33,111 nucleotides of DNA from Eubacteriales bacterium (GTDB lineage: Bacteria; Bacillota; Clostridia; Lachnospirales; Lachnospiraceae): the NCBI GenBank assembly GCA_030524785.1, contig JAUNFZ010000029.1, positions 1-33,111 on the forward strand, in the 5' to 3' direction. This document shows positions 24,130 through 33,064 of this stretch, piece by piece. Below the pieces are notes generated by a model that saw nothing but the letters and a program-made list of their open reading frames with translations, was not told where the DNA came from and did not search any database. Position 1 is the first letter of the stretch. Every line of letters begins with the position of its first letter. The position numbers and the translations under genes were made by a program.

Positions 24130-24996
24130 ATGTGGATATTTTATGCAGTCGGATCTTCCTTTTTTGCGGGAATTACAGCAATTCTGGCAAAGTGCGGAAT
24201 CCGCAGAACAGATTCGGATGTGGCTACGGCAATCCGCACGGTGGTGGTATTGCTATTCTCGTGGCTGATGGTACTGGTGACAGGCACATGGGCGGGACTG
24301 ACACAGATTGAGGGAAGGACACTTTTGTTTCTCGTCCTGTCGGGAATTGCGACAGGCGCCTCATGGCTCTGCTATTTTCGCGCCCTTCAGAAAGGGGATA
24401 TCAATAAGGTTGTTCCGATTGACAAGTCCAGTACCGTGCTTTCAATTCTTCTGGCGCTTATCTTTCTTCAGGAAGGGATTACAGGGCCAAAAATAATAGC
24501 GGTATTGCTGATCGGCACAGGAACCATGCTGATGATCACGAAGAAGGACATAGAAGAAACTTCCGGAAAGAAAAGCGGCGGATGGCTGATTTATGCGGTG
24601 CTGTCGGCAGTTTTTGCCAGTCTGACCGCTATATTGGGAAAAATAGGGATTGCAGGAATTGATTCCAATCTTGGCACGGCAGTCCGCACCACTGTGGTAC
24701 TTCTGATGGCATGGCTGATGGTGTTCGTGAGCGGAAAGCAGGATGAGCTGAGGAAGATAGAGAGAAAAGAACTCGGATTCATCTGCCTGTCGGGACTTGC
24801 AACGGGCGCCTCATGGCTTTGCTACTACCGGGCGCTTCAGGAAGGACCGGCAAGCGTCGTTGTGCCGATTGATAAACTCAGCATGCTGGTAACGATTGCA
24901 TTTTCCCGGATTATCTTTAAGGAAAGGCTGTCAAGGAAAGCGGCAGCCGGCGTACTTCTGATTACGGCAGGAACGGTTTTGCTGGCGGTTGTTTAA
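24130..24996 (+). CDS. EamA-family drug/metabolite (DMT) transporter
   Basis: A 288-residue membrane protein with ten predicted helices arranged as two EamA repeats. The repeats are unusually alike: SGIATGASWLCYFRALQKG in the first half matches SGLATGASWLCYYRALQEG in the second, and VVPIDKSSTVLS matches VVPIDKLSMLVT. Such proteins export or import small metabolites; the substrate is not predictable. TAAGGAGG precedes the ATG at good spacing. It is a single gene, and no regulator is adjacent. Confidence 0.9.
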   Translation: MWIFYAVGSSFFAGITAILAKCGIRRTDSDVATAIRTVVVLLFSWLMVLVTGTWAGLTQIEGRTLLFLVLSGIATGASWLCYFRALQKGDINKVVPIDKSSTVLSILLALIFLQEGITGPKIIAVLLIGTGTMLMITKKDIEETSGKKSGGWLIYAVLSAVFASLTAILGKIGIAGIDSNLGTAVRTTVVLLMAWLMVFVSGKQDELRKIERKELGFICLSGLATGASWLCYYRALQEGPASVVVPIDKLSMLVTIAFSRIIFKERLSRKAAAGVLLITAGTVLLAVV

Positions 24997-25060
24997 TCAG
25001 TGACATCTTTTTTGGAGGACATGGGGCTTTGACTATGGTAGATAATCGACATGAAAAACA

Positions 25061-25072
25061 GAACATATGTTC
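25061..25072. promoter_or_regulatory. LexA (SOS) box
   Basis: GAACATATGTTC is a perfect 12-bp palindrome and matches the core of the Bacillus/Clostridia LexA site (GAAC-N4-GTTC, commonly with ATAT in the centre). It lies 10 bases ahead of a weak promoter (TTGATT 25082-25087, 17-base spacer, TAGCAT 25105-25110). uvrB is a standard SOS gene, but its working start lies about 3.1 kb downstream; the first gene after this box is rhuM. Confidence 0.7.
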
Positions 25073-25081
25073 AAAATGATG

Positions 25082-25110
25082 TTGATTTATAGAGAAATCT
25101 ATGGTAGCAT
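25082..25110 (+). promoter_or_regulatory. Possible SOS promoter in front of the rhuM gene
   Basis: TTGATT and TAGCAT are spaced by 17 bases, just downstream of the LexA box. The -10 match is poor, so this is a tentative call; an alternative TTGACT at 25029-25034 has no good partner. Confidence 0.35.
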
Positions 25111-25208
25111 ATTGTAAAAACAGCGGGATATGGAAAGTAAATCAGGTGTTGGTGAAAGTGATTATAGAGTTTTTAGACAATATAATTGAATCGCGAGGAG
25201 GAGTTTAA

Positions 25209-26201
25209 ATGGAAAACCAGGGTGAGATCATTTTTTATAATACGGATGATGGTTTGACACATATCGAAGTAAAAGTAGAAGATGAAACTGTCTGGTTGAC
25301 AATAAATCAGATGTCAGAATTGTTTGGAAAATCAAGATCAACTATAAATGAGCATATTTTAAATATTTTTTCAGAAGGAGAATTACTCGAATCGGAGTCT
25401 GTGAGAAAAATCGGAAATTCCGATTTTTCTACAAAACCAACAAATTATTATAATCTTGATGTTATAATTTCCGTAGGGTATCGTGTGAAGTCTATTAGAG
25501 GAACACAATTTCGTCGGTGGGCAACAGAACGCTTAAAGGAATATATGATTAAAGGGTTTACGATGGATGATGAGCGGTTAAAAGGAAATGGTGGTGGAAA
25601 CTATTGGAAAGAATTACTTGACCGGATTAGAGATATTCGCTCATCTGAAAAAGTTCTTTATCGTCAGGTACTTGATTTATATGCAACAAGTGTTGATTAC
25701 AATCCTCACAGTGATGAATCAATACATTTTTTCAAAATTGTACAGAACAAATTGCATTTTGCAGCGCATGGTCATACGGCGGCGGAAGTGATATATGAAA
25801 GAGCGGATGCTGAGAAACCTTTTATGGGATTAACTTCTTTTGCAGGTGAGCTGCCGGCATTAAAAGATATAGGTATTGCGAAGAATTATCTTTCGGAAGA
25901 TGAATTGAAGATATTAAATAATCTTGTTTCAGGTTATTTTGACTTAGCTGAAATTAATGCGATTGAGCATAAACCAATGTACATGAATGATTATGTGGAA
26001 CAATTAGATTCCGTACTGTCTTCTGGCAATCGAAAATTACTAACTGGTGCAGGAAAGGTGAGCCACGATCAGGCTGTCAAGAAAGCAAAGGGTGAATATA
26101 GAAAATATCAGGATAAAACAATTTCTCCTGTGGAAAAGGCTTATATAGAGACCATTAAAGAAGCCAATAAAAATGCGAAACAAGGTGCCAGAAGAAGATA
26201 A
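25209..26201 (+). CDS. rhuM: RhuM family protein
   Basis: A 330-residue protein of the virulence RhuM family. The N-terminal part is a winged-helix-like DNA-binding region (ETVWLTINQMSELFGKSRST then INEHILNIF), followed by the signature STKPTNYYNLDVIISVGYRV and SIRGTQFRRWATERLKEYMI, and a C-terminal Fic-like region with HGHTAAEVIYERADAEKPFMGL. The sequence is complete and typical in length. The biological role is unknown; homologues sit in pathogenicity islands and defence-type gene neighbourhoods. GAGGAGG gives a strong start. The gene is visibly AT-rich compared with its flanks and is probably acquired. It lies directly after the LexA box, so SOS control is possible. Confidence 0.9.
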   Translation: MENQGEIIFYNTDDGLTHIEVKVEDETVWLTINQMSELFGKSRSTINEHILNIFSEGELLESESVRKIGNSDFSTKPTNYYNLDVIISVGYRVKSIRGTQFRRWATERLKEYMIKGFTMDDERLKGNGGGNYWKELLDRIRDIRSSEKVLYRQVLDLYATSVDYNPHSDESIHFFKIVQNKLHFAAHGHTAAEVIYERADAEKPFMGLTSFAGELPALKDIGIAKNYLSEDELKILNNLVSGYFDLAEINAIEHKPMYMNDYVEQLDSVLSSGNRKLLTGAGKVSHDQAVKKAKGEYRKYQDKTISPVEKAYIETIKEANKNAKQGARRR

Positions 26202-26231
26202 ATGATGAATGTATTGGTAAGGAAGTGTGTT

Positions 26232-26494
26232 ATGGATCATTTTGAATTAGTATCAGAATACGCCCCCACCGGCGATCAGCCCCAGGCCATTGAAGCTTTA
26301 GTCAAGGGCTTCAAGGAAGGCAATCAGTGCGAAACATTGCTTGGTGTCACCGGCTCCGGAAAGACCTTCACGATGGCAAATGTCATTCAGCAGCTGAACA
26401 AACCGACCTTAATTCTGGCGCATAATAAGACCCTGGCGGCGCAGCTCTATGGGGAGTTTAAGGAATTTTCCCGAACAATGCGGTGGAGTTTGTG
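26232..26494 (+). repeat. Long direct repeat, left copy
   Basis: About 263 bases, starting exactly at the uvrB ATG; pairs with 28210-28476. The two flanking sequences differ completely on both outer sides. Confidence 0.95.
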
Positions 26495-26495
26495 A
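26232..26495 (+). pseudogene. uvrB: Truncated duplicate of the uvrB 5' end
   Basis: This reads the first ~76 residues of UvrB unchanged, including Walker A GVTGSGKT, then loses one T in the run at 26465-26468 (four T instead of five), shifts frame to end ...FSRTMRWSL and stops at TGA 26493-26495. The DNA is nearly identical to 28210-28476: only two silent third-base changes (26282 C for T; 26450 T for C) before the frameshift, then a further 3-base deletion. It cannot make a working protein. An upstream in-frame ATG at 26202, next to the rhuM stop, could add ten residues. Confidence 0.93.
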
Positions 26496-26559
26496 TCTGA
26501 ATTCGTGTAACGGACGAGGTAACATTTATCAGGAAAATGTTTGGGTTAGGGGGATCTAA

Positions 26560-26778
26560 GTGAATCAGGAACATGAAATCGTACTATACCAAATAGAAGA
26601 CAGTAATGTATGCGTAAATGTGGTATCTAAAGAAGAAACCTTTTGGTTAACACAAAAGGCGATGGCAGAGTTATTTGATGTTAAAGTGCCAGCTATTTCA
26701 AAGCATTTATCAAATATATTTGATGAGCAGGAACTTATAAAAGAGTCAACTGTTTCCAAAATGGAAATAGTTCAATAG
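26560..26778 (+). pseudogene. N-terminal fragment of a second, different RhuM-family gene
   Basis: A 72-residue reading frame starting with GTG after AGGGGGA. EETFWLTQKAMAELFDVKVP followed by AISKHLSNIFDEQELIKEST is the RhuM N-terminal DNA-binding signature, different in sequence from the complete rhuM upstream. It stops at TAG 26776-26778 where the family should continue with a YNLDMIIAVGYRV-type block. No continuation in another frame was found, so the rest is deleted, not just frameshifted. If translated, the short product could still bind DNA as a minimal regulator; that is speculation. Confidence 0.75.
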
Positions 26779-26915
26779 GAGATAATTCAAGTGCAAAATA
26801 TAAGCAAATTATATGGGATGCACTACCAATTAAAAATAGAACAGCAAATTTTGAAAAAATAAAAACATTTTATGAGTCGCTTAAAATGGATGGTGGTATT
26901 ATAAAGAATGAATAG
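26766..26915 (+). pseudogene. Orphan 3' coding remnant
   Basis: A frame without a start codon overlaps the end of the RhuM fragment and runs about 49 codons (SSIGDNSSAKYKQIIWDALP then IKNRTANFEKIKTFYESLKM) to TAG. It reads like the C-terminus of a protein I cannot identify, joined to the RhuM fragment by an old deletion or recombination. Confidence 0.45.
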
Positions 26916-27009
26916 AGGATATAGATTATTTGACAGACAAGTAATTGTTTATGAATTAAAGTATACAAATCAAAAAGATACATGTACATTTGTTTTAGAG
27001 AGAATATAA
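26908..27009 (+). CDS. Possible 33-residue small ORF or further remnant
   Basis: ATG 26908 overlaps the preceding stop and encodes MNRGYRLFDRQVIVYELKYT plus 13 residues ending in LERI. No ribosome site is convincing. It may be another C-terminal remnant. Confidence 0.25.
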   Translation: MNRGYRLFDRQVIVYELKYTNQKDTCTFVLERI

Positions 27010-27045
27010 AGTTTAAAATTTGTTAAATAATGAGTCAATTATCAG

Positions 27046-27069
27046 ATTCGCTACACATGTGTAGCGAAT
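27046..27069. promoter_or_regulatory. Perfect 24-bp palindrome ahead of the DUF1016 gene
   Basis: The left half ATTCGCTACACA (27046-27057) is followed with no spacer by its exact reverse complement (27058-27069). It lies 14 bases before the DUF1016 start codon and touches its ribosome binding site. A dimeric repressor site or an element-specific recognition or cleavage site is possible. Confidence 0.6.
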
Positions 27070-27083
27070 TCAAAGGAGGACAG

Positions 27084-28112
27084 ATGAATAAGAAGAATGA
27101 AATGATAAAACAAGAGCTATCTGAAGTTGCTGAAATGGAGGAACAACAATTTTTCGAAGATGTACGTTTGATACTGCAACAAGCTAGAGAACAAGCTTAT
27201 AGCAGTGCCAGCGCAATAATGACATATGCATATTGGAATGTAGGGCGAAGAATTGTCGAACAAGAGCAATTAGGGGAAAAGAAAGCGAAATATGGCTCCT
27301 ATTTAATAAAAAATTTGTCGGTAAAATTATCAGATGAATTTGGCACAGGATTTTCAGTGGCGAATTTAAGAAATTGTCGTCAACTTTATTTGACGTTTCC
27401 GAAGGATTCATATGGGTTTTCAATGGCGGGAAAAGTGTCATGGTCTCATTTGAGAAATATCATGCGTATTTCGGATGAGGAAGAAAGGAATTTTTACTTG
27501 AATGAAGTCGCAAATGAAAATTGGTCGGTAAAAACCTTAGAACGTAATATCAGAAGCGGATATTATAAGAGATTGCTTTCTTCGCAACTGCCGGATAGAA
27601 ATAATGAAACTTTGGAATTTGTGAAAGATCCATTTGTATTGGAATTTATGGGGGTGGGGCAAGACACAAATCAGTTAGAAAGTGATTTAGAAACTGCAAT
27701 TATAAGTAATCTGCAAAAGTTTTTACTGGAGATGGGGAAAGGTTTTTCTTTTGTTGGAAGACAGATGCGTGTTTGCACGGAAACAACAGATTTTTATATT
27801 GATTTAGTATTTTACAATTTCATCTTGAAATGTTTTGTATTAATTGACTTAAAGACTACGAAGTTAACACATCAGGATATTGGACAGATGGATATGTATG
27901 TGAGAATGTTTGACGATTTGAAACGGCGGGAAGATGATAACCCAACAATAGGGATTATATTTTGTACAGATAAGGATGAAACAATAGTTAAATATTCCGT
28001 ATTGCAGGAGAGTCAGCAAATATTTGCATCAAAATATATGACGGTGTTGCCGACTGTAGAAGAATTACAGAGGGAGTTAGAACGTAATCAGTTGATATAT
28101 AATCAAAATTAA
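27084..28112 (+). CDS. DUF1016 / YhcG-type PDDEXK nuclease-like protein
   Basis: A 342-residue protein. The N-terminal DUF1016 domain (~20-170) shows YAYWNVGRRIVEQEQLGEKK, FGTGFSVANLRNCRQLYLTF and LSWSH-like VSWSHLRNIMRI. The C-terminal nuclease-like domain carries FVGRQMRV, Asp240 in FYIDLVFY, and Asp255-Leu-Lys257 in FVLIDLKTTKLTHQDIGQMD, an intact PD-(D/E)xK core. It is predicted to cut or process nucleic acid; the family's cellular role is not established, though it often sits in mobile or defence-type loci. The ATG at 27084 follows AAAGGAGGA; an in-frame ATG at 27030 would read through the palindrome and is less likely. It is AT-rich and forms the cargo between the two uvrB repeats. Confidence 0.88.
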   Translation: MNKKNEMIKQELSEVAEMEEQQFFEDVRLILQQAREQAYSSASAIMTYAYWNVGRRIVEQEQLGEKKAKYGSYLIKNLSVKLSDEFGTGFSVANLRNCRQLYLTFPKDSYGFSMAGKVSWSHLRNIMRISDEEERNFYLNEVANENWSVKTLERNIRSGYYKRLLSSQLPDRNNETLEFVKDPFVLEFMGVGQDTNQLESDLETAIISNLQKFLLEMGKGFSFVGRQMRVCTETTDFYIDLVFYNFILKCFVLIDLKTTKLTHQDIGQMDMYVRMFDDLKRREDDNPTIGIIFCTDKDETIVKYSVLQESQQIFASKYMTVLPTVEELQRELERNQLIYNQN

Positions 28113-28124
28113 TATAAAAACACC

Positions 28125-28151
28125 GATTTGTTAGACAGTGTCTGACAAATC
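28125..28151. promoter_or_regulatory. 13-bp inverted repeat after the DUF1016 gene
   Basis: GATTTGTTAGACA (28125-28137), one central G, and TGTCTGACAAATC (28139-28151) pair with a single G-U. No T run follows (CTAATAATATTTA), so it is not a standard terminator. It may be an operator, an RNA 3' end structure or an element end. Confidence 0.5.
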
Positions 28152-28172
28152 CTAATAATATTTATATTTAAT

Positions 28173-28191
28173 TACCGAGGAATGCTCGGTA
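28173..28191. promoter_or_regulatory. 7-bp inverted repeat in the new uvrB leader
   Basis: TACCGAG-GAATG-CTCGGTA lies 19 bases upstream of the intact uvrB start codon, just before its AGGGAG ribosome site. No LexA box and no convincing promoter are seen between 28113 and 28209. Confidence 0.45.
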
Positions 28192-28209
28192 GTTTAGGGA
28201 GATTTCATC

Positions 28210-28476
28210 ATGGATCATTTTGAATTAGTATCAGAATACGCCCCCACCGGCGATCAGCCTCAGGCCATTGAAGCTTTAGTCAAGGGCTTCAAGGAAGGCA
28301 ATCAGTGCGAAACATTGCTTGGTGTCACCGGCTCCGGAAAGACCTTCACGATGGCAAATGTCATTCAGCAGCTGAACAAACCGACCTTAATTCTGGCGCA
28401 TAATAAGACCCTGGCGGCGCAGCTCTACGGGGAGTTTAAGGAATTTTTCCCGAACAATGCGGTGGAGTATTTTGTG
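28210..28476 (+). repeat. Long direct repeat, right copy (start of intact uvrB)
   Basis: About 267 bases matching 26232-26494 with two substitutions and two small gaps. It starts at the ATG. It is the intact coding version. Confidence 0.95.
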
Positions 28477-30192
28477 TCCTACTACGATTATTATCAGCCG
28501 GAGGCGTATGTTCCCTCCTCTGACACATATATTGCAAAGGATTCCTCGGTTAATGACGAGATTGACAAGCTGCGGCTGTCGGCGACGGCGTCGCTGATAG
28601 AGCGGCGGGACGTTATCATCGTGTCCAGTGTATCCTGTATTTATGGTCTGGGCGAGCCGGAAAACTTTGAGAAGATGATGGTGTCGCTGCGTCCAGGGAT
28701 GGAGAAGGACCGGGACGAGGTGATACGCCAGCTGATCGACATACAGTACGACCGGAGCGAGATGGATTTTCATCGGGGTACTTTCCGGGTACGCGGTGAT
28801 GTTCTGGAAATATTTCCGGCAAGCGCGGATGATTACGCATTTCGGGTGGAGTTTTTTGGAGACGAGATCGACCGTATTACAAAGATTGATGTGCTGACGG
28901 GAGAAATCAGAAGCCGGATGGAGCATATTGCTGTTTTTCCTGCGTCCCATTATGTGGTGCCGATGGAAAAAATTCTGGAGGCAGCGGACAATATTGAAAA
29001 GGAGCTGGAGGAGCGCGTAGCTTATTTTAAGAGTGAGGACAAGCTGATTGAAGCTCAGCGGATTGCGGAGAGAACGAATTTTGACGTTGAAATGATGAAA
29101 GAGACGGGGTTTTGCTCCGGAATTGAAAATTATTCCCGTCATCTGTCGGGGCTGGAGCCGGGAGTGCCGCCTCATACACTGATGGATTATTTTCCTGATG
29201 ATTTTCTGATCATTATCGATGAGTCCCATAAGACGATCCCGCAGATACGGGGAATGTACGCGGGGGATCAGTCCAGAAAGACGACGCTGGTGGATTACGG
29301 CTTCCGCCTGCCTTCGGCGAAGGATAACAGACCCTTGAATTTTGAAGAATTTGAAAGTAAAATAGACCAGATCATGTTTGTCTCTGCGACGCCGGGAGAT
29401 TACGAGGAGCAGCATGAACTTTTGCGGGCGGAACAGATCATCCGGCCTACGGGGCTTTTAGATCCTCATGTGGAGGTGCGGCCTGTAGAGGGACAGATCG
29501 ATGATCTTGTAAGCGAAGTCAACCGGGAAGTGGAAAAGAAAAACAAGGTGCTGATTACAACGCTGACGAAAAAGATGGCGGAAGACTTGACAGACTATAT
29601 GCGGGAGATCGGTATTCGCGTAAGATACCTACATTCGGATATTGATACGCTGGAGCGGACGGAGATCATTCGGGATATGCGCCTGGATGTGTTTGACGTG
29701 CTGGTGGGGATTAATCTTCTGCGGGAAGGACTTGATATTCCGGAGATCACGCTGGTGGCGATTCTGGATGCGGATAAAGAGGGATTTCTGCGTTCCGCCA
29801 CATCTCTGATACAGACCATTGGGCGTGCGGCGCGAAATTCCGACGGCCATGTGATTATGTATGCGGATACCATGACGGATTCCATGAAAATTGCCATTGA
29901 CGAGACGAACCGGAGGCGCAGCGTGCAGGAGGCCTACAATAAAGAACATGGAATTACGCCGCAGACGATACGAAAGTCTGTGCGGGATTTGATCAGCATC
30001 TCCAAAGAGGTTGCCAAGGAGGAAAAGAAGCTGGAGGTTGATCCCGAATCCATGAGCAAGAAAGAATTGACAAAGCTTGTAGCGGAAGTGGAGAAGAAGA
30101 TGCGCAAGGCAGCAGCAGAGCTGAATTTTGAAGCTGCGGCAGAACTTCGCGACAGAATGATTACGCTGAAAAAGCATCTGAACGATCTATAG
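28210..30192 (+). CDS. uvrB: Excinuclease ABC subunit UvrB
   Basis: A 660-residue helicase-like protein that verifies damage in nucleotide excision repair and recruits UvrC. Walker A is GVTGSGKT (residues 38-45). The damage-clamping beta-hairpin region reads [20 protein letters not shown]. Helicase motifs include [28 protein letters not shown] and QTIGRAARN. The C-terminal UVR domain for UvrC/UvrA contact is [21 protein letters not shown]. Length and motifs are complete, so the gene is intact despite the insertion upstream. AGGGAG precedes the ATG. uvrA follows 13 bases later. Its leader is now AT-rich cassette DNA without a LexA box. Confidence 0.97.
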
Positions 30193-30205
30193 AAAGAGGA
30201 TTACG

Positions 30206-33064
30206 ATGGAGACGGAAAATAAAAAGGAGTATATCCGCATCCGCGGAGCGAATGAACATAATCTGAAAAATATTGACCTGGATATTCCAAGAAATAAGCT
30301 GGTGGTACTGACGGGACTCAGCGGTTCCGGAAAATCGTCCCTGGCTTTTGATACGATCTATGCGGAAGGACAGCGGCGGTATATGGAGTCGCTGTCCTCC
30401 TATGCCAGGCAGTTCCTGGGACAGATGGAAAAGCCGGATGTAGAGAGTATCGAAGGCCTGCCGCCGGCTATTTCGATTGACCAGAAGTCTACAAACAGGA
30501 ATCCGCGCTCTACTGTGGGTACAGTGACAGAGATCTACGATTACTTTCGGCTTTTGTATGCCCGCATAGGGATTCCCCATTGCCCGAAATGCGGCAGGGA
30601 GATCCGGAAACAGACGGTGGACCAGATGGTGGACCAGCTGATGGAGCTTCCGGAGCGCACAAAGATACAGCTGCTGGCTCCGGTGGTGCGGGGACGCAAG
30701 GGAGAACACGTCAAGCTTTTTGAGAAAGCAAAACGCAGCGGGTATGTGCGGGTGATTGTGGACGGTAGCATGTATGAGCTGTCGGAGGAAATCAAGTTAG
30801 ACAAAAATAAAAAACATAATATTGAGATTGTGGTGGACCGCCTGATGGTGAAGCCGGGGATTGAAAAGAGACTGACGGATTCTCTGGAGAACGTGATGCA
30901 GCTTTCTGAAGGGCTGGTGGTCGTGGACGTGGACGGTGCAGAGACCATTCGTTTCAGCCAGAGCTTTTCCTGCCCGGACTGTGGAATCAGCATTGAGGAA
31001 ATCGAGCCGCGGAGCTTTTCTTTCAACAACCCCTTTGGCGCCTGCCCGGACTGCTTTGGCTTGGGGTATAAGATGGAGTTCGATGAGGAGCTTATGATTC
31101 CCGATCCATCCCTGAGCCTTTCCGAGGGGGCAATTGCCGTTATGGGCTGGCAATCCAGCAATAAACCCGGTAGCTTTACCCGGGCCACACTGGAAGCTCT
31201 TGCAAAGGAATACAAATTCAGTCTGGACACGCCCTATGAAAAACTGCCGGAGGAGATACGCCATATGCTTCTGCACGGCACAGACGGCAGAAAAGTAAAA
31301 GTGCATTACGCCGGTATGCGCGGTGTTGGGGTTTACGATGTAGCCTTTGAGGGCCTGATTAAGAACGTGGAGAGACGCTACCGGGAGACAGGCTCGGAGT
31401 CATCCCGGCAGGAATATGAAGCGTTTATGCGCATTACGCCCTGCCGCACCTGCGGAGGACAGCGCCTGAAGAAGGAAGCGCTGGCAGTTACAGTGGGCGG
31501 CAAAAATATACATGAGGTGACTTCCATGTCCGTGGACTGTCTGCTGCAGTTTTTGAAGGAATTGAAGCTGACGGAGCAGCAGAAGCTGATCGGACATCAG
31601 ATTTTGAAAGAGATCCGGGCGCGGGTGCAGTTTCTGGCAGACGTGGGGCTGAATTATCTGACTTTGGCCAGGGCCACCGGAAGCCTTTCCGGGGGCGAGG
31701 CTCAGAGAATACGGCTGGCCACCCAGATCGGTTCCGGACTGGTGGGAGTGGCCTATATTCTGGATGAACCGAGTATCGGACTTCATCAGAGGGATAACGA
31801 CAAACTTTTGAATACGCTGAACAGCCTGCGGGATCTGGGAAACACATTGATTGTGGTGGAACATGATGAGGACACCATGATTGCGGCGGATTATCTGGTG
31901 GACATCGGCCCCGGTGCGGGGGAACACGGCGGAGAGGTTATCGCGGCGGGAACTGCGCAGGAGGTAATGAAATGCAAAAATTCCATCACGGGAGATTATC
32001 TGAGCGGCCGGAGGAGCATACCCGTACCGCGGGAGCGCAAGCAGCCTACAGGTTTTTTGAAGGTGATAGGAGCGAGACAGAACAATTTGAAAAATATTGA
32101 CGTGGAAATTCCCCTGGGAGTGATGACCTGCGTGACGGGCGTCTCCGGCTCCGGCAAGAGCTCCCTGGTAAATGAGATTCTCTATAAGAGCCTGGCGAAA
32201 AAGCTGAACCGAGCGCGGACGATCGCGGGAAAGCATGATCGAATTGAGGGCGTGGAGCAGCTGGATAAGGTCATCAACATTGACCAGTCTCCAATCGGAA
32301 GGACGCCCCGCTCCAATCCGGCCACCTATACGGGAGTGTTTGATCAGATCCGCGATCTGTTTGCGGCAACGGCGGACGCGAAGGCGAGGGGCTATAAAAA
32401 GGGACGTTTCAGCTTTAATGTGAAAGGGGGACGCTGCGAAGCCTGCAGCGGCGACGGAATTCTCAAAATTGAGATGAATTTTCTGCCGGATGTTTATGTG
32501 CCCTGCGAGGTTTGTCACGGAAAGCGTTACAACCGCGAGACGCTGGAGGTAAAATATAAGGGAAAAAGCATCTATGATGTTTTGGACATGACGGTGGAGG
32601 AAGCTCTGAAATTTTTTGAACATCTTCCGTCCATCCGCAGGAAAATCGAGACGCTTTACGATGTGGGTCTATCCTATATCCGTCTGGGACAGCCGTCTAC
32701 AACGCTTTCCGGCGGAGAGGCCCAGCGTATCAAGCTGGCCACGGAGTTGAGCCGCCGCAGCACCGGAAATACGATTTATATTTTGGATGAGCCTACAACG
32801 GGGCTGCATTTTGCAGACGTGCATAAGCTCATTGAAATATTGCAGCGCCTGGCGGAAGGCGGAAATACGGTGATCGTGATTGAGCATAATCTGGATGTGA
32901 TTAAGACGGCGGATTATCTGATCGATATGGGGCCTGAGGGCGGCGACGGCGGCGGAACTGTGATTGCCAGGGGAACGCCGGAGGAAGTGGCGGCGATGCC
33001 CTGGTCCTACACAGGACAGTATGTGAAAAAATATCTTGAGAGGGAAAAGACGCCGCAGGCTTAG
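30206..33064 (+). CDS. uvrA: Excinuclease ABC subunit UvrA
   Basis: A 952-residue ABC-type ATPase that first recognises DNA damage and loads UvrB. Two ATPase modules are complete: Walker [10 protein letters not shown] at residues 37-45 and GVSGSGKSS near residue 645, signatures [16 protein letters not shown] and [16 protein letters not shown], and Walker [15 protein letters not shown] and [14 protein letters not shown]. Zinc-binding cysteine pairs are seen in CPDCG with CPDCFGLG and in CEACSGDG with CEVCHGKRY; a further CPKCG lies near the start. It is slightly longer than the E. coli enzyme (940). A GAAAGAGGA site precedes the ATG. It forms an operon with uvrB. Confidence 0.97.

Follow-up and report, generated by a model that had tools for sequence, protein, structure and literature searches.

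A stretch of 33,111 nucleotides from a bacterium of the Lachnospiraceae (Eubacteriales; GenBank assembly GCA_030524785.1, contig JAUNFZ010000029.1, positions 1 to 33,111; hereafter the window) carries the 5' end of the DNA repair gene uvrB twice. Each copy begins at an ATG (26232 and 28210), and over an alignment of 258 bases the two differ by two silent substitutions and a 1-base gap; this direct repeat is far above chance. The 1-base deletion sits in the left copy, which is frameshifted; the right copy opens an intact uvrB of 660 codons. The DNA between them is AT-rich (33.0% G+C, compared with 50.0% in the remainder of uvrB) and contains a truncated RhuM gene and an intact PDDEXK gene with DUF1016_N and YhcG_C domains. 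These features had been described correctly in the original prediction, made from the letters of the window, which proposed that a nuclease cassette had entered uvrB at 26232 to 28476 and that the start of the gene had been rebuilt. That foreign DNA entered uvrB, that its start was rebuilt and that an intact gene was kept all stand, but the feature is larger, with a further RhuM gene and a promoter region lying to its left. Comparison with related genomes indicates that the locus is very probably a remnant, decayed and lacking an integrase, from a family of integrative elements that insert at a single core sequence within uvrB by means of tyrosine recombinases. The features of the locus are as follows (LE denotes the element left end; uvrB' denotes a truncated uvrB start).

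25051 to 25111, plus strand: displaced uvrB-type promoter region with LexA/SOS box (91.8% identity to genome G001, locus L022)
25209 to 26201, plus strand: intact RhuM-family gene, 330 amino acids (Pfam PF13310, E 1.7e-104; PADLOC candidate-defence model PDC-S05)
26232 to 26489, plus strand: left uvrB 5' copy, truncated and frameshifted (99.2% identity to 28210-28468)
26482 to 26542, plus strand: putative element left-end remnant, fused to uvrB' at GGTGGAGT (nhmmer LE profile 26483-26542, E 7e-4)
26560 to 26778, plus strand: truncated RhuM gene, 72 amino acids, putative cargo relic (84% amino acid identity to the RhuM N-terminus of an element in G197)
27084 to 28112, plus strand: intact DUF1016_N and YhcG_C (PDDEXK) gene, putative cargo (Pfam PF06250 and PF17761)
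28132 to 28161, plus strand: promoter-like hexamers before the functional uvrB (consensus scan; weak, the total for the region not exceeding shuffles)
28210 to 28468, plus strand: right uvrB 5' copy, the current start of the gene (repeat alignment)
28210 to 30192, plus strand: intact uvrB, 660 amino acids (open reading frame and Pfam scan)
28462 to 28481, plus strand: putative recombination core GTGGAGTATTTTGTGTCCTA in uvrB, codons 85-91 (36 uvrB' junctions aligned here)

Truncated uvrB starts and recombinases in relatives

Eight genomes of the genus, the window's own (G000) included, were searched. Truncated extra uvrB starts are present in G000, G002, G005 and G007, and a copy in G006 is cut by the end of its contig; an uninterrupted, single-copy uvrB, which the original prediction had suggested looking for, is found in G001, G003 and G004. 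A search with the left-end DNA of G005 returned mainly the uvrB part of the query, and later surveys were made by protein. Across the family, 39 of 397 sampled genomes have at least two matches to the first 92 residues of UvrB by hand count, an upper figure in that the counts for G136 and G146 are one gene split in two.

The uvrB' fragments were counted by comparing the full UvrB protein with all gathered loci, full copies being excluded; loci had been gathered by the N-terminal 92 residues or by recombinase, so that fragments from other parts of uvrB are under-sampled. The ends of these fragments coincide: 39 of 45 lie at codons 86-94 (a figure that includes L030, a duplicate of L024, and L116, which ends in a run of Ns), with three earlier (the window, where the match is interrupted by the frameshift, L020 and L120) and three later (L094; L086, for which the DNA junction falls at codon 91; and L093, a long frameshifted copy). 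The common break point was read from the DNA, where the junction core TTTGTSTCCTA is exact in 26 of 36 aligned junctions and has one to several changes in the other ten. The junction is followed by a non-coding left end of ~150 bp. Each left end was compared with a profile built from the remaining 35, from which its close relatives had not been removed; 34 of 36 reached at least 10 bits, L098, L099, L086 and L069 lying between 10 and 20. Four loci were dropped from this set, namely L027 (a misread full copy), L030, L078 (a degenerate end) and L116, which had been considered as a disrupted uvrB until the gap turned out to be the run of Ns. Because the pattern recurs in the single-contig genomes G042, G325 and G329, it is not in general an artefact of assembly, a possibility that the original prediction had raised.

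Some left ends occur in other settings. LE-type sequence preceded by only the last few uvrB codons, with no uvrB' copy, is seen in L064 (G142 contig C222, near position 160, minus strand; nearby open reading frames look by eye like rpsB and tsf) and in L063 (G144 C1, near 262,650), and these may be secondary-site insertions or trimmed relics. In L092 (G053 C1, 5,447,000-5,456,000), two uvrB' copies with left ends stand in tandem with ParA/ParB nearby; the full uvrB of G053, a single-contig genome, lies at 1.457 Mb, so that by coordinate ~4 Mb separate it from them. Structured RNA was considered as a reason for the conservation of the left end and set aside: the window at 25000-30500 has no Rfam match at E 0.5, and eight relative loci at the Rfam gathering threshold gave only one unrelated tRNA.

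The other side of these insertions is marked by recombinases. L102 (G032) encodes an intact tandem pair of tyrosine recombinases (both PF00589) directly 5' of a full uvrB, the corresponding pair in L089 (G020) has a broken first and a shortened second member, and G329 has recombinase pieces upstream of uvrB (L084) and a whole pair within the element (L085). By eye and against the usual consensus, L085 seemingly has no HxxR histidine in its first recombinase (QDLRDMYAE) and RxxR in its second, so this pair is perhaps degenerate or non-standard. To survey relatives, a recombinase query from uvrB-adjacent loci was used and matches were picked on recombinase similarity alone, contigs being scanned with an alignment of the second recombinase and the best 80 of 207 relatives taken. 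A uvrB start lies 265-1517 bp downstream in 76 of these 80; three of the others run off the contig (with room of 310, 23 and 1 bp), which leaves L131 as the one real exception. Where at least 1 kb of upstream sequence is available, a second recombinase is found just upstream in 66 of 72 loci. A phage or plasmid origin was rejected, all matches to the recombinase in 1404 phage and 168 plasmid records being below 60% identity (the 16 listed are at 26-33%). Against the NCBIfam integron-integrase model the recombinase scored 27.1, far short of the cut-off of 265. In G032, uvrB (near 77 kb) and uvrB' (near 205 kb) share a contig, and a gene for the VirD4/TraG coupling protein (PF02534) lies between the two; in G005 one lies downstream of uvrB' on its contig, the right end of that element being on another contig. 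At least one large form of the element may be conjugative.

That the elements bring in a start of their own is suggested by the uvrB genes of species that share one. The recombinases of Coprococcus catus and Eubacterium ramulus are identical over the query, and their uvrB genes are 100% identical over the 240 bp before the core, as is the DNA over 240 bp upstream of the gene, but only 73.2% identical over the 600 bp after the core. The uvrB genes of L132, L136, L144 and L149 likewise show 97-99% identity before the core against 66-70% after it, whilst over 3486 pairs the mean difference is 4.3 points. Since such genes are nearly identical before the core and divergent after it, the elements would appear to integrate inside uvrB and to carry a replacement for its first ~90 codons, so that uvrB in these species is probably a chimera produced by horizontal transfer. 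Within genomes, 18 pairs of left and right copies were attempted and 17 measured (L021 gave no row). In 14 of the 17 the copies are only 72-91% identical, that is, they differ by 9-28% and so are not fresh duplicates; three pairs reach at least 95%, namely the window, G325 and G316. In the latter two the upstream DNA is identical too, whereas that of the window is unrelated.

Origin of the second uvrB start in the window

In the window, uvrB homology in the left copy ends at GGTGGAGT (26482-26489) and the sequence beyond matches the end of a mobile element, with pairwise blastn identities of 82-89% over 36-56 bp to the equivalent place in L087, L140, L159, L100, L107 and L076. The same 8-mer occurs in the left ends of L107, L100 and L087, 108 bp beyond the core. 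What had been described as a 3-base deletion between the copies is better read as a junction: with GGTGGAGT present in both uvrB and the element end, loss of ~129 bp from one 8-mer to the other would account for it. Most of the recombination core is accordingly gone from the left junction and persists in uvrB only. Three marks thus appear to link the window to the uvrB element family: the left-end remnant, the GGTGGAGT junction and a displaced SOS promoter.

We envisage that the recombinases, usually a tandem pair, integrate the element at uvrB codons ~85-91. Sequences in relatives support an arrangement in which the right end of the element consists of the recombinases, often a LexA-box promoter, and the element's own first ~90 uvrB codons, these being joined in frame to what remains of the host's uvrB, with the old start left on the far side as a dead uvrB' fragment ahead of the left end. 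Elements could stack, because the fused uvrB again contains the core, and selection for a working start would keep uvrB intact. The SOS promoter stranded before the first RhuM gene suggests that there were two insertions in the window, and at least two rounds can be proposed. A first would have separated the promoter from uvrB, leaving the old SOS promoter and the RhuM gene at 25209-26201, which we read as cargo remaining from that earlier insertion; a second would have left uvrB', the scrap of left end, the broken RhuM gene and YhcG. The left uvrB copy is then read as the previous start of the gene, displaced, and the right copy, by analogy with the chimeric genes of relatives, as a replacement carried in by the element. 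Deletions would have removed other element genes, the right-end promoter and, via the 8-bp repeat, the core of the left junction, and the copy in the window is therefore probably immobile. An origin of the right copy in another strain, as had been proposed from its silent differences, would be in keeping with this mechanism, although the sequence of the window by itself does not establish it.

Several observations weigh against this interpretation. Without the core, the left end of the window scores 11.2 bits against the profile, when the best of 100 whole-window shuffles scores 12.2; the remnant is convincing because it is placed right at the end of uvrB', and position and pairwise matches carry the case. 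Membership of the family is argued from a scrap of junction, the two copies and the relatives. L094 (0 bits) and L080 (5.6 bits) fail the left-end profile. The earlier statement that no transposase or integrase is present holds for the uvrB-side recombinases of relatives, of which tblastn at E 1e-4 detected neither a copy nor a relic in the window (its open reading frames were not all scanned for other transposases). G000 as a whole gives only weak matches to the recombinase profile, the best at 74 bits, and for this reason a recombinase acting in trans from that genome was rejected; a search of G000 for PF02534 also found none. Furthermore, PF02534 was not found between uvrB' and uvrB in G042, G329, G316 and G229, although present elsewhere in those genomes, so several members of the family are probably small or not conjugative. 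Finally, the copies in the window are 99.2% identical when 14 of 17 pairs are far more divergent, the identity begins exactly at the ATG, and the 5' part of the window's uvrB is as close to G001 as the remainder of the gene is (83.8 compared with 82.0%).

Such similar copies and so unforeign a start require either re-insertion of an element from the same lineage, followed by deletions, or gene conversion between uvrB' and uvrB that homogenised the second copy after a foreign element had inserted. Conversion would account for an identity bounded by the ATG and by the end of homology, with unrelated sequence upstream, and we regard it as a reasonable possibility that nevertheless falls short of even. 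The pairs in G325 and G316, with their identical upstream DNA, are accounted for by same-lineage re-insertion and need no conversion.

A second alternative concerns the small inserts without an integrase, which are present in several genera (that in the single-contig genome G042 is 3.1 kb) and have formed arrays. Their diverse defence and toxin-antitoxin-like cargo is mostly co-directional with uvrB (main cargo genes, by eye, among the open reading frames listed, which cover L090-L094 in part). One could imagine an integron-like system in which cassettes of left end, cargo and uvrB start are mobilised in trans by the recombinases of larger elements and gather at uvrB, rather than being remnants of deletion, but we think this improbable. 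In G120, ParA residues 17-89 adjoin IntB residues 308-411, in G035 a C-terminal relic of IntB lies just 5' of uvrB, and further pieces of IntB are found in other loci. These look like internal deletions of larger elements in which left-end cargo and uvrB start were spared. In addition, the right-end motif is apparently absent from the upstream sequences of several (by eye), the window's included, and the window has lost its left core as well.

The mechanism originally proposed, insertion of a selfish nuclease cassette with a long target duplication as reportedly occurs with Helicobacter restriction-modification genes, scarcely survives: a cassette between near-identical 258-bp repeats of a host-gene piece, with no family recombinase in the window, would be compatible with it if the window pair is taken alone, but it predicts initially identical copies and varied break points, whereas the break point is fixed across genera, apparently made by a dedicated tyrosine recombinase and followed by a related element end, 14 of 17 pairs and the chimeric genes speak against duplication of the recipient's own target, the functional 5' part in relatives is borne by the element and shares its ancestry rather than that of the host's rest of uvrB, and a RhuM or YhcG match is present in just 12 of the 40 uvrB'-bearing loci (some loci cover only part of an element).

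Promoter, cargo and comparable systems

The displaced promoter region (25051-25111) corresponds to the stretch 98-38 bp before uvrB in G001, where the gene is single-copy; it is 88% identical to G005 and contains a perfect LexA/SOS box, GAACATATGTTC, at 25061-25072 by pattern search. It now heads the RhuM gene at 25209-26201 and not uvrB, and the same pattern search found no SOS box in the 450 bp upstream of the functional uvrB. A perfect GAACnnnnGTTC, the LexA/SOS box motif of Firmicutes, stands within 450 bp upstream of uvrB in 53 of the 91 full copies. In recombinase-bearing loci its distance from the gene is commonly 245-350 bp, compared with 77-88 bp in G003 and G001, the genus mates with one uvrB copy. 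No terminator-like sites were found on the plus strand from 24985 to 28300. We infer that uvrB in the window either has lost SOS control or is transcribed along with the RhuM and YhcG genes by read-through that starts at the displaced SOS promoter. By eye, an inverted-repeat-like stretch (GTGACYT..ATTCGTGTAA ... TTACACGAAT) lies upstream of uvrB' in L024 (G005), and stretches of the same type, resembling the tail of the left end, lie upstream of uvrB in L106, L082 and L081; recombinase arm sites or a uvrB leader are both possible.

The RhuM genes and the YhcG nuclease gene of the window are probably leftover cargo. The YhcG DNA is 78.5% identical to the YhcG region of an element in G158 which has a left end similar to that of the window and whose YhcG protein (85% identical) is also encoded directly upstream of uvrB. 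The RhuM fragment at 26560-26778 has no Pfam match by itself and was named by its match to the longer RhuM of the G197 element. Cargo across the loci includes RhuM, YhcG, MNT-HEPN, an IrrE-like peptidase with HTH, AAA_21 with RloB, a metallophosphatase and DUF3990. Nine hand-picked cargo proteins were submitted to PADLOC: eight hit defence models, some of them known but most of them candidates, and the HEPN protein matched none.

The closest parallel is with dusA-associated islands and prophages, whose integrase acts at a conserved site within the 5' portion of a housekeeping gene; the island swaps in its own 5' end, the remnant staying on the other side (PMC4482086). The uvrB elements likewise strike the 5' part of a gene, replace it and leave a remnant. 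As for those islands, insertion recurs at one intragenic site (39 of 45 fragments; 26 of 36 exact cores), the gene start is apparently supplied by the element between species sharing one (the window itself giving 83.8 and 82.0% to G001), and a dedicated recombinase lies at the element end in relatives (76 of 80), none being detected in the window. They differ from what is described there in targeting uvrB, in usually having two tandem recombinases, in replacing ~90 codons, in often bringing a LexA-box promoter, and in serial stacking and integrase-less remnants. SpyCI islands offer another precedent of a mobile element in the 5' end of a DNA repair gene, here Streptococcus pyogenes mutL (PMC3430984; PMC4689407; PMC4129442), and in a strain with a defective SpyCI a promoter inside the remnant rescues mutL (PMC3430984). 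As far as these accounts go, SpyCI switches mutL off and on, whereas the uvrB element would rebuild coding sequence.

Searches of the open-licence literature turned up no account in which such elements integrate into uvrB, and a description elsewhere is possible; the mentions followed up are of UvrB among the cargo of integrative and conjugative elements (ICEs) (PMC7466150), of uvrB transposon mutants in a mycoplasma ICE-acquisition screen (PMC12892991) and of a small island open reading frame misannotated as UvrB (PMC11773190). The uvrB elements thus look like a large unreported family in Lachnospiraceae and related Clostridia.

Cis-mobilisable elements (CIMEs) are integrase-less derivatives of ICEs flanked by att sites. 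The uvrB remnants resemble them in lacking recombination and conjugation genes and in occurring beside larger elements at the same site. They differ in that the left junction of the window has lost the core past GGTGGAGT, so intact att sites do not flank both sides and the remnant in the window is unlikely to be mobile in cis.

For these elements, an integration site that is fixed and dedicated can now be named in a near-universal repair gene, with its recombinases, core and left end. Chimeric uvrB genes matter for gene trees and for the evolution of SOS control of excision repair, the elements offer a reason why RhuM, YhcG and other defence or toxin-antitoxin-like genes accumulate before uvrB, and the recombinases could be tried as integration tools in poorly tractable Lachnospiraceae. 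The ~90 replaced codons presumably include the ATP-binding loop of UvrB, judging by its motif. More tentatively, it is possible, though we would not call it likely, that elements in gut Clostridia replace the LexA promoter of uvrB along with the ATP-binding N-terminus of UvrB, making Lachnospiraceae UvrB a mosaic, and that remnants behind the SOS promoter form a defence or toxin-antitoxin operon, maybe induced by damage together with uvrB.

Two further observations concern YhcG. G000 encodes another YhcG/DUF1016 gene away from uvrB (C76:34237-34619, L029; 43% amino acid identity), with a degraded neighbouring copy. Just 5' of YhcG in the window, a 24-bp self-complementary stretch (27046-27069) contains CGCTACACATGTGTAGCG and is resembled by a CTACACGTGTGTAG stretch before YhcG in L078; it is a possible regulator site of YhcG.

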